This document shows positions 5,619-63,213 of a stretch of 64,000 nucleotides of DNA, piece by piece. Below the pieces are notes generated by a model that had not been told where the DNA came from, did not search any database, and saw only the letters and a program-made list of their open reading frames with translations. The translations under genes were made by a program, and so were the position numbers. The DNA is from Symbiodinium natans. Lineage: Eukaryota > Sar > Dinophyceae > Suessiales > Symbiodiniaceae. Within the stretch, counting starts at the first letter, position 1. Each line of letters starts with the position of its first letter. The stretch is from contig CAJNDS010001702.1 in NCBI GenBank assembly GCA_905221605.1, positions 122,001 to 186,000 on the forward strand. Direction: 5' to 3'.

Positions 5619-6641
5619 TAAACCCTGCAAGACATCAGGTGAGTGCCAAGTGAAGCCAGGGTTTAAGTTCAACTCGAAAGGACGAACGGCAATTGGTTGT
5701 CTGCATGACCCGGAAACTGGCACTAAACCCTCAACCTCAAACCCTCAAGCCCTAAACCCTCAAATCCTAAACCCTCAAACCCTGAAACCCTGAAACTCTC
5801 AAATCCTGAAACCCTCACACCCTCATTCCCCAAAAACAGAAAACCCTGACCTCCTAAGCCTAAACCCTAAGCCCCTAACCCTTTAACCATGAAGCCGAAC
5901 CAGGTGAGTCCAACACCATCCACGAAAACCCTACAGGCCCTAGACTTTACCTTCGCCCCGCAGCTACTTAATTAGAATCTCACACTTCTCCTAAACCCTA
6001 AACCCTAAACCCTGAACCCTAAACCCTAAACCCTAAACCCTAAACCTAAACCCCAAACCCCAAACCCCCGAAGGCCGGCGGCTCGCCTGAGGCGAGCTTC
6101 GTCCCAGCCTTGAGTCGAATTTTGAGAATCCGAGGGTATCGGAGCTTAGCGTGTAGGGTTTAGGGTTTAGGGTTTAGGGTTTAGGGTTTAGGGTTTAGGG
6201 TTTAGGGTTTAGGGTTTAGGGTTTGGGGTTTTTAGGCTTGGGCTTAGGGGCTTAAAGGCTTTAGAGAGGTTCAAAGTTCTCTGAGTTTCTCGTTTGGGGC
6301 TCAAGTTCAGGATTTAGGGTTTAGGGGGGAAAGTCATTTGCTTTTAGGGCTCCAAATTTCGACTTGCAACGTGAAACACAACCAACCTGAAAGACGCACG
6401 TCTGCGCTTCGGCATTGTCGAGAAGTCTAGGTTTTTAGTGGTGTAAGGTTTAGGGTTTCCAGGGACCAAACATCTCCAGACGGGCTAGGGTACAATGTCC
6501 CAGAATTAGGTTCGACGTCCTGGCCAAGTGCTTGTTGAAAATCACGGCGCCGCAGGCCCCCAAGCCCTAAACCCTAAACCCTAAACCCTAAACCCTAAAC
6601 CCTAAACCCTAAACCCTAAACCGCCCTGAAAGCCTACAAAC

Positions 6642-6890
6642 CATGGGACCGGAAGACCCCCGAAACACTCCATGGCAAATCAAGGCCCAAAGCCCCTTCA
6701 ATGTCAGAATTTTGGGGCTTCACTTGGAACCTGTGTTTGGATGCAGATCGGGATTTTCCAGATCCCACAGAACTCGTAGAAGTCCTCGACGAATCGGGAG
6801 GGCTCTGTCTGGAGTATCTCAGAGTCTCAGATCCTGAAAGATTCTCGTGGTCGAGTGTTCCGTCCTGGAGAAATTGAGAGGATTCGGATC
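6642..6890 (-). CDS. candidate exon, Ser-rich (about 83 codons)
   Basis: The segment follows TTTCACGAAG and stays open for 249 bp. The protein is serine-rich and disordered in style, with SESSQFLQDGTLDHENL near its start and ALGLDLPWSVSGVF near its end. It ends either at a donor CATG|GTTTGT (6641-6640) or at the in-frame TAG at 6636-6634, so it may be the last exon of the unit. Confidence 0.55.
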
Positions 6891-7028
6891 CTTCGTGAAA
6901 ATCTTAGACCTTGTAGCAACCCCCCCCCCCCCCCCCATAAAACTAAAATACTCCTCCCCCCCTAACAAAACAAAAAACAATGAGAAGTAATAACAAGCTC
7001 CAAGTCAGAAATGCTTCGGTTAAACCGT

Positions 7029-7220
7029 TTAGGTCAAAACTGTTTGGGGTACAAGCCCTATACAACTTCTGTGGAGGAGAAGGCCTTCGCGTGCCGCGAT
7101 CGGCGAGGCGTCGCCAATGCCTGCGCGCACAGCTTTGCAGATGAGTAGGTGCTTTATACCCTTGGGGTTAGAGGTGATGGTTTGGGGTACCTCGAAGTAT
7201 TCGGCAAACCCTAAAGCCAT
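7029..7220 (-). CDS. possible exon-like open segment
   Basis: A 63-codon frame includes the protein-like stretch CKAVRAGIGDASPIAAREG (about 7083-7145). Splice borders are not obvious, and the frame may simply be fortuitous. Confidence 0.2.
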   Translation of the reverse strand: MALGFAEYFEVPQTITSNPKGIKHLLICKAVRAGIGDASPIAAREGLLLHRSCIGLVPQTVLT

Positions 7221-7734
7221 TCTGCTTGATCAGCTTGCTCACAGGAAGAAGCAGTTGTACCAGCACTCCAGGCTAAAGAATCCCAAACATGTTGAACTGT
7301 CCGTCCTACACCCTAAATCCCCGAACTTCCAGATGTAAAGCCCTAAGCCCGAAACGAGCCGAACCCCTAAAAAGGCTGAAGGTGCGCACTCTACATACTG
7401 ATCCCTAACCCTACACCCCAAACACCCGAAGGTCAAGCTTGGAAAGTCGCAACGTGTTCCTACCACCCTAGGCGTAACCCCAAACCCTGGAAGTTCTATA
7501 AGCCCTTAACCCGGAGACCCTACAAGCCCTAAACCCCAAACCCTATAAGCCCTAAACCCCAAACCCTATGAGCCCTAAACCCCAAATCCTCAGCCCTAAA
7601 CTTAACCCCAAACCCGAAGCCCTAAACCCTAGCCCTAAGCCCTCAACCCTTAATCGAAACCTAAGCACACATCTACAGGGTCGCCCGGCCTTCAGCCCGC
7701 ATCAGGGCCTGGCCATAGACTCTGCTGCTACTAA

Positions 7735-8112
7735 CACTACCACCACTACCACCACTACTACCACTACTACCACTACTAACACTACTAACACTGCTAACAC
7801 TACTAACGCTACTAACACGACTAACACTACTAACGCTACTAACACGACTAACACTACTAATAACACTGCTAACACTACAAACATTACAAACACTACGAAC
7901 ACTACAAAAACCACCACCACCACCACCACCACCACCACCACCACCACCACCACCACCACCACCACCACGACGACGACGACGACGACGACGACGACTACTG
8001 CTACCTACTACTACTACTACTACTACTACTACTACTACTACTACTACTACTACTACTACTACTACTACTACTACTACTACTACTACTACTACTACTACTA
8101 CTACTACTACTA
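7735..8112. repeat. compound trinucleotide microsatellite (ACT/ACC/ACG/CTA)
   Basis: About 380 bp move from ACY/AAC interruptions through pure ACC, then ACG, then a long CTA tract. The resulting poly-Thr/poly-Tyr and poly-Val frames are by-products of the repeat. Confidence 0.95.
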
Positions 8113-8247
8113 AAAAAAAACCCTAAACCCAAAACCCTAAACCGTAAACCCCAAAACCCGAAACCCGATCGCAAGGGACCGTCAGGCCCCCCCTACTGGG
8201 TCGAGGAACGTTCCTACATCGGAACGTAGTTTTCCTTCAGGCTTCAT

Positions 8248-8325
8248 ACGCACACACACACACACACACGTATATATGCATGTATATATATATAATGTTT
8301 ACATAGATATATATATATATATATA
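8248..8325. repeat. (CA)n and (TA)n microsatellite
   Basis: A CA run at about 8249-8268 is followed by TA runs to 8325, in an AT-rich stretch that ends near 8410. No gene is seen between 7,220 and 8,505. Confidence 0.9.
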
Positions 8326-8504
8326 TCAGAGCAAAAATAATAAATTACTGTATAAGCTTTTATGATATAGTACAATATGCTAACGAATAGAACTGTTCAC
8401 ATATAGTATGTAAACCTCCTGGACCGGAGCTATCGGCGCTTTGAAGCCCTCCAAATTTACATCCCGGACCCTAAACCCTAAACCCTAAACCCTAAACCCT
8501 AAAC

Positions 8505-61255: not shown

Positions 61256-61480
61256 GACATACACATACATATACATAATTACATTTTATCTACTCATGTA
61301 CATAAATGAACATTGAATAGAAAACAAATGTAAGTGTACGTATAGGTGTGTATAAACGGATATACAAATAAGCAAACACATACATATAAACATGTATATA
61401 CATACATACATACATACATACATACATACATACATACATACATACATACATACATACATATCTATCTCTGTGTGTGTGTG
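61256..61480. repeat. (TACA)n microsatellite
   Basis: Degenerate TACA/TATA repeats lead into a pure (CATA)n run at about 61400-61460. Confidence 0.94.
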
Positions 61481-61737
61481 TGTCTGTCACACCTGGTTTA
61501 TGGGAAAGCTGCGTGTTGGAAGTCCAGGGCCTTAATTCTATTTAGCATCGCCCCAAAGAAACGACAGCTCGGATGGATGACGGTGTTCAGCCTAGGGCCT
61601 ATGCAAGGCTAAAGGCAATGCTGCTCAACCACGCTCGAAACATCGAACTGAAGATCAAGTTGCGGCGCTCACAAGGCGTGAACGGTTCCTTCAGGAGGAT
61701 TGCTTACCTTAAGAATCGGTTAAGACTAAAAATAAAC

Positions 61738-61872
61738 TATTTAGGGAAAAGTTTAAATTTTAACTTTTTTAGTTAAAGTTTAAAATTTAAACTTTAACTA
61801 AAAAATTTAAACTATTTTTAGTTTAAATTTTAAACTATTTAGTTTGTTTTTCAAGTTTATTTTTCAAGTTAA
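61738..61872. repeat. AT-rich palindromic cluster of TTTAAA motifs
   Basis: AAGTTTAAATTTTAACTTTT, TTAAAGTTTAAAATTTAAAC and similar segments are mutually complementary, so the stretch can fold into nested hairpins. Confidence 0.88.
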
Positions 61873-62083
61873 AATTGACCATTAGTGTTGAGTCTTTACC
61901 TTGGAAGTAAGTAGTTGAAAGTCACAGTTGTCCACTTGAGGAGAGTTGGGAGAGAGGAAAACGACCGAGAAGCGACTTGCTTGTCTTAACTTGAGGAGAG
62001 TTGTGAGAGAGAAGGAGCGAGACATTTCTTGTTTGTGTGACAGTTTGTGTTGCACTTCGAGTATCAGAGTTTTTTTTGCAGTC

Positions 62084-62299
62084 AAGCTTTCGTCCGCAAA
62101 GATGGATGATTGCAAGTTGTGGGTGGGAGGGTTAGAGCATGCCCTCTCAGCTTCGAGATTGAGAGCCATTCTCCCGTTCTCTGGCGGCAAGATTTGTTTG
62201 TATGCTGAGTCACATTTGATCGAAAACCGCCGCCCACCAGCCCATGCTTTGCAGCTCTTTGCAGGTTGGGTGACATCGCCCTGCAAGACGTGTCAATGA
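62084..62299 (+). pseudogene. plus-strand gene-like fragment with RNP2-like start
   Basis: After a strong acceptor (AGTTTTTTTTGCAG, ending 62083) the plus frame reads KLSSAKMDDCKLWVGGLEHA and continues 50 more residues to TGA. KLWVGGL resembles the RNP2 strand of an RRM, but no RNP1 follows, so this may be a decayed or unrelated fragment. Confidence 0.32.
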
Positions 62300-62579
62300 T
62301 GCACCGCGGCTCAGGGACGGCCTCTGCGGCCTGCTTGTGCTCCTGGGCTTTCTTTATGCATGGAGCTCACGTCCACAGTGCCATTGCTTTCTTAAACTTA
62401 GCCGGGCCCCTGAGGCTTCGACTCGAAGACCACTCGTGACGAAGCATGGTGGCTTCTTGTTGAGCACGGATGGCCGGTCCGAGAGTGGGTAACTCGAGGC
62501 AGCCGGCCTTTTACCTGGCAGGCACCCCAACGTGGAGAGTCTTCTGCAGGCCTCGTGGAGACGCAGATGGTTAGCCGTG

Positions 62580-62965
62580 TGGAGGAGGAGCTCTTAAGTG
62601 AGCTTACGTCCTGTAAGCTGTCGGAGCAGGCCAGAAGTCTTCAAGATGCTTGGGAGAGAACTTGAGGAGTGTGACAGAGTCAGAGACACAGTGTCCCGGA
62701 GTCCTCAATATACTTTGAGTGAACTTGAGGAGAGGTGTTTTAGACAGAGCCAACGATAAGTTGTTGCAAAAAACTTGTAGGCGGCCCTGGAGAAGAACGC
62801 AACTGCTAGCACTCGGCTGAGGCAAGAACTGGAGGCCTTGCTTTGTGTTGCAAATGCACCTGGCATCAAAATAAACGCCTGTCCTCCTCAAAATGAAAAG
62901 CCTGAAGATAATGTATTAGGAGATTTGTGGGAAAGTCTTGAGAACTGGGGGGAGGGGGGGGGGGG
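62580..62965 (+). pseudogene. plus-strand coiled-coil-like remnants
   Basis: EEELLSELTSCKLSEQARSL (about 62584-62650) and ALEKNATASTRLRQELEALL (about 62788-62850) are both helical, with stops between them. They could be two exons or remnants of one gene. The second frame stays open to about 62,960. Confidence 0.32.
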
Positions 62966-63158
62966 TGGAGGGATTATAACATCAGAGGGAGCTGATAACA
63001 ACTGCAGAGGCTGCACATTTTCCAAGGTTGTCTGCCGGCAGTGCGCGTCTACATTTTCTTCCTTAAAGCCGTACAAGCCCTAAACCCTAAACCCTAAACC
63101 CTAAAGCCTAAACCCTGGACGCTGTTTGGCTGCTATCGGGCTTATAAGCTCAACACAC

Positions 63159-63213
63159 CGCCTTGGTCAGCTCAATGTTGCGAGAGCGCTCGTACTTGAC
63201 AGCTTCTCGATAC
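63159..63213 (-). CDS. candidate exon (55 bp), rightmost minus-strand piece
   Basis: After CCCATAAAG the frame reads YREAVKYERSRNIELTKA, ending at AGGCG|GTGTGT. Confidence 0.55.

Follow-up and report, generated by a model that had tools for sequence, protein, structure and literature searches.

Does a field of telomere repeats in the interior of a contig hold the exons of a protein-coding gene? The question is raised by a stretch of 64,000 nucleotides from the dinoflagellate Symbiodinium natans, here called the window, which covers positions 122,001-186,000 of the 760-kb contig CAJNDS010001702.1; all coordinates below count from the first letter of the window, and the genome searched comprises 759.4 Mb in 2543 contigs. 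Our analysis suggests, with a probability of about 0.6, that the interval is part of a long putative protein-coding gene on the minus strand, or of a one-way gene cluster, with 30 to 50 detectable short exons. The telomere-repeat field in which the original prediction had placed its exon-like pieces is plainly there, since TTTAGGGTTTAGGG occurs in 364 copies on both strands together, against 0.00 expected. Telomere units reach a density of 13.3 per kb in 6640-63213, against 0.2 per kb in 1-5500 and against means of 0.7 and 1.3 units per kb at the two sets of comparison loci from this genome, 30 with HSP70 and 30 with ion-channel genes. The excerpted text of PMC11453091 gives TTTAGGG as the telomere repeat of dinoflagellates. 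We ruled out a chromosome end, because the arrays alternate in orientation and the window is internal to the contig; as part of the reading just given, and with the same probability, the arrays would be intron matter.

Codon signal between the arrays

Islands were defined as the DNA between arrays, 45-400 bp long and from position 5500 onward (n=189), and were labelled by their left and right flanking arrays on the plus strand, where C stands for CCCTAAA and G for TTTAGGG. For every island and strand the best open piece between AG and GT, GC or GA was scored with a codon table built from HSP70 exons and 6239 ion-channel codons of the same genome, and was compared with dinucleotide shuffles of the same island. 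With 9.5 islands expected at p<=0.05, the minus strand was significant in 41/189 and the plus strand in 19/189, and 10 of these 19 were also significant on the minus strand. The minus direction that had been predicted is thus borne out by a strand-biased codon signal.

The signal is strongest in the short CG islands (45-180 bp), where 20/50 were significant on the minus strand and 3/50 on the plus strand; the corresponding minus and plus counts for short islands were 2 and 4 of 33 for GC, 4 and 3 of 36 for CC, and 2 and 2 of 25 for GG. On the minus strand the short CG islands differ from the other short islands (20/50 vs 8/94, Fisher 1.1e-5), and on the plus strand they do not (3/50 vs 9/94, Fisher 0.86). 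A run with 60 shuffles gave 20 minus and 2 plus hits for short CG islands, and 5 and 5 for short GC islands. The minus hits in short CG islands are distributed over successive 10-kb bins as 2, 4, 1, 4, 5, 3 and 1. When the scores of the two strands were paired without shuffles, the minus strand was higher in 35 short CG islands and the plus strand in 15 (Wilcoxon 2.8e-5), with scores of at least 6 in 22 islands on the minus strand and 6 on the plus strand; the same pairing, minus against plus, gave 16 vs 17 for GC islands and 14 vs 11 for short GG islands. Among islands of 181-400 bp the significant counts, minus and plus, were 3 and 3 for CG (n=7), 4 and 0 for GC (n=15), 2 and 3 for CC (n=15), and 4 and 1 for GG (n=8). 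The minus-strand coding signal is real, and its concentration in short pieces between a CCCTAAA and a TTTAGGG array upholds the predicted location of the pieces between telomere blocks.

Within the 50 short CG islands pi0, the proportion of true nulls, was 0.40, which corresponds to about 30/50 islands with real signal. Because further exons are to be expected in some islands of the other classes, we estimate the number of exons at 30-50, and the figure of about a hundred exon-like pieces in the original prediction is too high.

We also scored segments with a table of 3244 HSP70 exon codons from the same genome (third-position G+C 0.79). Scores of at least 10 were reached by 43 minus and 21 plus segments, and by 24 and 18 segments in the reversed and complemented controls; the best-ranked segments in both lists lie in a trinucleotide repeat at 7910-8110. 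The surrounding stretch 7728-8112 consists of trinucleotide arrays (ACC, ACG, ACT) that leave several frames open and yield false matches to the codon model.

Orientation of the arrays

Read in sense, the short CG islands have (CCCTAAA)n before the candidate exon and (TTTAGGG)n after it, at a distance from the proposed borders that is, by eye, a few to some 20 bases in many of them. Introns would thus tend to have (TTTAGGG)n at their start and (CCCTAAA)n at their end, a short way ahead of the AG, so that exons would tend to sit between CCCTAAA and TTTAGGG arrays. There are 46 CG islands of 60-180 bp, where shuffled labels give 31.8 (P 0.0002), and 31 GC islands. The arrays themselves are ordered: near head-to-head pairs (G then C, at most 30 bp apart) outnumber tail-to-tail pairs by 11 to 4 in the window (P 0.011) and by 16 to 6 at 13 other loci (P 0.0017), which also hold 42 CG and 32 GC islands (P 0.044). 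Genome-wide, with two exact units required on each side and a gap of at most 7, there are 1162 head-to-head and 304 tail-to-tail places, at least one of which is counted twice because the gap is variable.

The CCCTAAA unit contains no AG that would rival the acceptor, and it looks like a branch-site or pyrimidine stretch, and a TTTAGGG array near the acceptor would bring a decoy AG in every unit; for this reason the observed orientation may be the one that is tolerated. The array-piece-array stretch 18340-18697 has a very stable predicted fold (z -10.7), a stability that follows from the complementarity of its arrays and says nothing about function. At another locus (L024 3409-3558), beside an HSP70-domain gene on contig C2418, a 150-bp stretch between CCCTAAA and TTTAGGG arrays has a score of 9.7 on the sense strand of that gene and of 10.2 on the opposite strand.

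A candidate exon with relatives elsewhere

The candidate at 46762-46938 has relatives on three other contigs of the same genome, C2104 (E 2.5e-4), C535 (E 0.0018) and, weakly, C1882 (E 0.55), and the surroundings of all three are rich in telomere units (23-36 per kb). Its DNA identity with C2104 is 86% over 123 bp. Between C535 and C1882 the differences at codon positions 1, 2 and 3 are 4, 4 and 17 over 22 codons, with 12 synonymous and 8 non-synonymous changes, a pattern that in this sequence comparison indicates purifying selection on the pair. The window and C1882 differ at 9, 7 and 15 positions over 20 codons. The excess at the third position in both comparisons argues that the family is protein-coding. 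Together with the strand-biased codon signal, this family favours the long gene or one-way cluster of the original prediction. Between the window and C2104, the differences are 12, 9 and 12 over 47 codons, with no constraint visible. The alignments of the window with C535 and of C2104 with C535 were shifted by one codon and were left out of this comparison.

Splice borders and alternative explanations

Splice borders gave no help. The AG and GT or GC borders had been offered as exon markers, and a scan by that literal rule (open pieces of 17-212 bp, AG before, GT or GC after, off the exact telomere units) returned 410 non-overlapping pieces on the minus strand and 409 on the plus strand, or 48005 and 36343 candidates when overlaps were kept. 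Equal plus-strand numbers in a blind scan, which the original prediction had itself named as speaking against it, are therefore what the rule yields when used alone; it is too loose for such borders to prove anything, and we dropped it as exon evidence. Phase-consistent chaining of pieces was dropped as evidence for a joined gene as well: at penalty 9 the chain scored 161 on the minus strand, 75 on the plus strand and 145 on the reversed sequence, a control that stands near or above the minus chain.

A number of results weigh against a minus-strand gene organised by array orientation. The reversed control exceeds the minus chain at penalties 10 (116 vs 113) and 11 (99 vs 77). In the 50 short CG islands CAG stands at the acceptor side in 29/50 in sense and 25/50 in the mirror position, and AG in 49 and 45, so that neither these counts nor those of the literal rule show borders enriched over chance. 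Signal extends beyond the CG class, since the islands of 181-400 bp, with the four classes pooled, are significant in 13/45 on the minus strand and 7/45 on the plus strand; the paired scores of short CC islands favour the minus strand by 29 to 5 (p 1.7e-4), with 4/36 beating their shuffles, and those of longer CC islands lean to the plus strand (4 minus vs 11 plus). In the 4 kb adjoining the window the minus strand is ahead in 1/4 CG islands of 45-180 bp (minus/plus scores 10.8/4.6, 6.1/8.1, 4.8/5.0 and 2.6/9.6), and the CG islands at 12 other telomere-bearing loci show a weak coding signal (mean 4.95, vs 4.27 in GC). No orientation rule was found at the 60 HSP70 and ion-channel loci, of which 21 hold arrays; the nearest array there is C in 9 cases and G in 7 upstream, and C in 9 and G in 5 downstream. 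Two of the relatives of 46762-46938 lie in the opposite order, G-exon-C. The other pieces queried against the genome, in four groups, matched only themselves or sequences at E >=1.69. When joined, the pieces had no hit at E<=1 in Pfam (1085 aa searched) and none at E<=10 among PDB chains (902 aa searched).

Some of these results would be natural in a dead gene, whose exons are remnants that decayed after repeats swelled the introns and that are no longer spliced or translated. The lack of visible constraint between the window and C2104 fits such a remnant, as does the fact that the other queried pieces have no relative or domain, and so may RLLEPDSSSQDVTTPPRKK (46762 downward; partial C535 match, E 0.12), which is out of frame with the preceding conserved QTQAEM stretch through either a frameshift or a short intron. 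Neutral decay, however, would erase the open frames and the codon preference that persist in 20/50 short CG islands, and we regard a dead gene as unlikely. Another explanation is chance and composition, by which open pieces between stop-poor, AG-rich repeats would mimic exons on either strand. The equal literal counts and the reversed chain are what this explanation predicts, but shuffling dinucleotides within the same island removes composition and still leaves 20/50 minus against 3/50 plus, so that it is largely refuted and we hold it to be improbable.

The pieces might also be fragments of dispersed transposable elements that share one direction of insertion. The stretch 19375-19449, which we rejected as an exon, proved to be a dispersed repeat, for which the matches listed (109 of 751 candidates were scored) include about 100 other places in the genome; 27500-27566 resembles the vicinity of 18940-19000 by eye, with a 74% match of the neighbouring stretches; and retroelement-like frames lie on the same strand at 487-5227. 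Two further queries, of 341 and 338 aa, nevertheless turned up no relatives repeated beyond the window, and we consider this source very improbable. The frames at 487-5227 are of 442 and 422 aa; the longer one weakly matches a tyrosine recombinase (Phage_integrase, E 0.0011, 19.3 bits vs a cut-off of 27.1), and the other is without a family. A further stretch near 27838-27920 resembles the repeat at 19375-19449 by eye. The putative minus-strand gene or cluster is the most probable reading; its pieces are presumably spliced together, and it would be active.

Possible origin of the introns

In a gene of this kind, the exons would be separated by introns filled with interstitial telomere arrays and with short elements that carry inverted repeats. 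Three families of such elements (A, B and C), with terminal inverted repeats and several copies, are present in the window, and in families A (GGGATGTTCCCCCTTATAC...) and B (CTTGGAGGTTCATGGGTAC...) the left half contains TAGGG and the right half CCCTA. We examined six complete array-bearing elements, chosen by eye: the array lies in one half in 5/6 and at the centre in the sixth (50155). TTTAGGG is on the left in L083:227-408 (an element at another locus), 39724 and 43504 and mostly so in 18587, and CCCTAAA is on the right in 60996, which in all five is the order that yields head-to-head arrays. In the alignments of 4/5 of them the array stands on a TAGGG or CCCTA seed, the exception being 18587. 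An automatic tally (at most 6 mismatches per arm, any block within 130 bp) had a mixed outcome; it counts some blocks that lie outside elements, such as beyond 37985-38082, as well as right arms with inward TTTAGGG for which no left arm was found (L012, L056, L073).

Among the closest known systems are the introners of dinoflagellates; those of S. microadriaticum, in the excerpted text of PMC9860276, have inverted repeats and 4-bp duplications carrying the 3' splice site. The elements described here resemble them in being short and having terminal inverted repeats, in that several sense ends read ...CCAAG or ...CTCCAAG, the latter in some copies of family B, and in that one family B element, the only element seen to abut a supported exon exactly, ends at 43503/43504, the start of exon candidate 43431-43503. 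They differ in the TAGGG/CCCTA seeds of their halves, some with telomere arrays, and in having TA at both sides of some family B copies and no fixed 4-bp copy. Given the seeds, the CTCCAAG end at 43431-43503 and the introner report, we propose that the introns may have begun as introner-like inverted-repeat elements on whose seeds the arrays later grew. A wider form of this proposal is tentative, and we rate it well below even odds: telomere repeats would be a building material of introns in this alga, with seeds extended by telomerase or slippage to (TTTAGGG)n at the 5' end and (CCCTAAA)n at the 3' end, and the genome would hold hundreds to thousands of telomere-ended introns whose ends are able to pair. 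If so, exon skipping or circular RNAs would be expected from pairing around an intron or an exon.

Comparison with known genes and repeats

Dinoflagellate genes, as characterised in the excerpted text of PMC11453091, mostly run one way; many of them contain introns, whose borders are GT, GC or GA. The proposed gene would share with ordinary Symbiodiniaceae genes the single direction, short exons and GT/GC/GA-AG borders, and would differ from them in spending about 57 kb on an estimated 30-50 exons and in its telomere-rich introns. Mammalian interstitial telomeric sequences at double-strand breaks (excerpted text of PMC7215372) are likewise internal, non-terminal repeats; here, unlike there, more than 200 blocks within 58 kb alternate and bracket coding-like pieces. 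Among the literature matches listed, no title or abstract opening reports telomere-ended introns in dinoflagellates. If the reading is correct, gene finders that mask telomere repeats, or break at them, would miss a class of dinoflagellate genes, and chromosome-internal telomere arrays would be tied to the birth and growth of introns. The orientation rule would also offer a cheap search for genes, between CCCTAAA and TTTAGGG arrays 60-180 bp apart.

Feature list and minor observations

Of the 41 islands significant on the minus strand, 25 are tabulated (Table 1) and 16 are omitted, being mostly long islands, weak pieces or equally good on the plus strand. The candidate at 46762-46938 is absent from the shuffle-test list and is tabulated for its relatives.

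Table 1. Candidate exons, arrays and inverted-repeat elements in the window (C, CCCTAAA; G, TTTAGGG; p, shuffle p; LLR, log-likelihood ratio)
Feature	Coordinates	Strand	Context	Remarks
Exon candidate VKYERSRNIELTKAV	63155..63202	-	C-exon-G	LLR 10.8; p 0.003
Exon candidate ASTGWLYFDRPRNRWVVKAQL	58591..58656	-	C-exon-G	p 0.027
Exon candidate DDKVEITWADGNPVDQAT	56739..56793	-	C-exon-G	p 0.033 minus, 0.007 plus (plus better)
Exon candidate NVVSTSQRFKDDGSFELQALD	55530..55593	-	C-exon-G	p 0.023 minus, 0.027 plus
Exon candidate KLRGVPKEAQIIQTEHPYPAVNHSWKKDHRD	48101..48194	-	C-exon-G	p 0.013; nothing below E 1.69 outside window
Exon candidate TYEAEVEKQKQAEEEKVF	47161..47214	-	G-island-G	p 0.007
Exon candidate ...MAHGAASWQLPPGPETQAEMRQAMQEVRQAEGILTTQMVEQHVPSPDV	46762..46938	-		sole candidate found with relatives elsewhere
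Exon candidate IIFSEKCKTYD	45560..45594	-	C-exon-G	p 0.050 minus, 0.066 plus
Exon candidate GIPKSTIGPGLRVEAAALVSFVF	44605..44675	-	C-exon-G	p 0.033
Exon candidate YWISCVMQVDGLDGSRKFGTIFEA	43431..43503	-		p 0.013; starts at ...CTCCAAG end of family B element
Exon candidate EALQEERGGRMIRLDKEKEERL	42775..42844	-	G-island-G	p 0.003
Exon candidate AFVVEEKKSL	40284..40315	-	C-exon-G	p 0.030
Exon candidate DVRLFCLLVCQEGRMA	38127..38175	-	C-exon-G	p 0.037
Exon candidate SRALFWIRLDRTSRQGK	37628..37681	-	C-exon-G	p 0.027
Exon candidate VSLAGFAGEGPAQALAVILDF	36847..36910	-	C-exon-G	p 0.013
Exon candidate VQTLLGDSQYAF	33282..33317	-	C-exon-G	p 0.043
Exon candidate KVRPGWIVSVDDTFTEA	26289..26340	-	C-exon-G	p 0.047
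Exon candidate WGILALIVPADAEPQ	18520..18565	-	C-exon-G	p 0.020
Exon candidate PLTRKNSNPQHRTL	16586..16630	-	C-exon-G	p 0.033
Exon candidate AFEPNQATIGPVTILSSIELAPCL	16098..16171	-	C-exon-G	p 0.003
Exon candidate FEGPEDEGFSDLDKAKEKYQWATAQEHL	13767..13852	-	C-island-C	best score, LLR 19.1; p 0.003 minus, 0.020 plus; no match outside window in genome search
Exon candidate TLKTEMMTRFQEKYQ	11829..11875	-	C-exon-G	p 0.003
Exon candidate TNAKAVSGATLDVDDAVQAAEEV	10623..10693	-	C-exon-G, 307 bp island	p 0.010 minus, 0.030 plus
Exon candidate FLRQVRDEDGEILLLV	9871..9919	-	C-island-C	p 0.003 minus, 0.010 plus
Exon candidate YLKLADGRGYISCRDAWFTQLLGK	9136..9209	-	C-exon-G	p 0.023
Exon candidate LLYMSPAWDMVMAEASEVTL	8516..8576	-	C-exon-G	p 0.013
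Interstitial telomere arrays	5552..63931	.	both orientations	233 merged blocks from 5500 onward; 133 exact blocks
Family A element	37985..38082	.	copy without array
Family A element	60996..61154	.	CCCTAAA array in right half	right end read from sequence
Family B element	50155..50308	.	CCCTAAA array at centre
Family B element	43504..43668	.	TTTAGGG array in left half
Family B element	39724..39926	.	TTTAGGG array in left half
Family B-like element	18587..18768	.	TTTAGGG array mostly in left half	arms with 3 and 5 mismatches
Family C element TACCTTGGGGAC...GTCCCCAAGGTA	15025-15139 and 20074-20187			two copies

A search of the window detected no tRNA, nor any RNA family at gathering score. By eye, about 21 bp (CCACAGCGTATCTCTCAGGCA) at 15812-15832 and 16083-16104 flank a telomere array in the manner of an insertion duplication. 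The stretch 34433-34594 is palindromic (89% over 56 bp) and stands beside an assembly gap of 100 N (34495-34594), and a 9-bp unit, TTACTAGAA, is repeated in 22 copies at 24612-24809.

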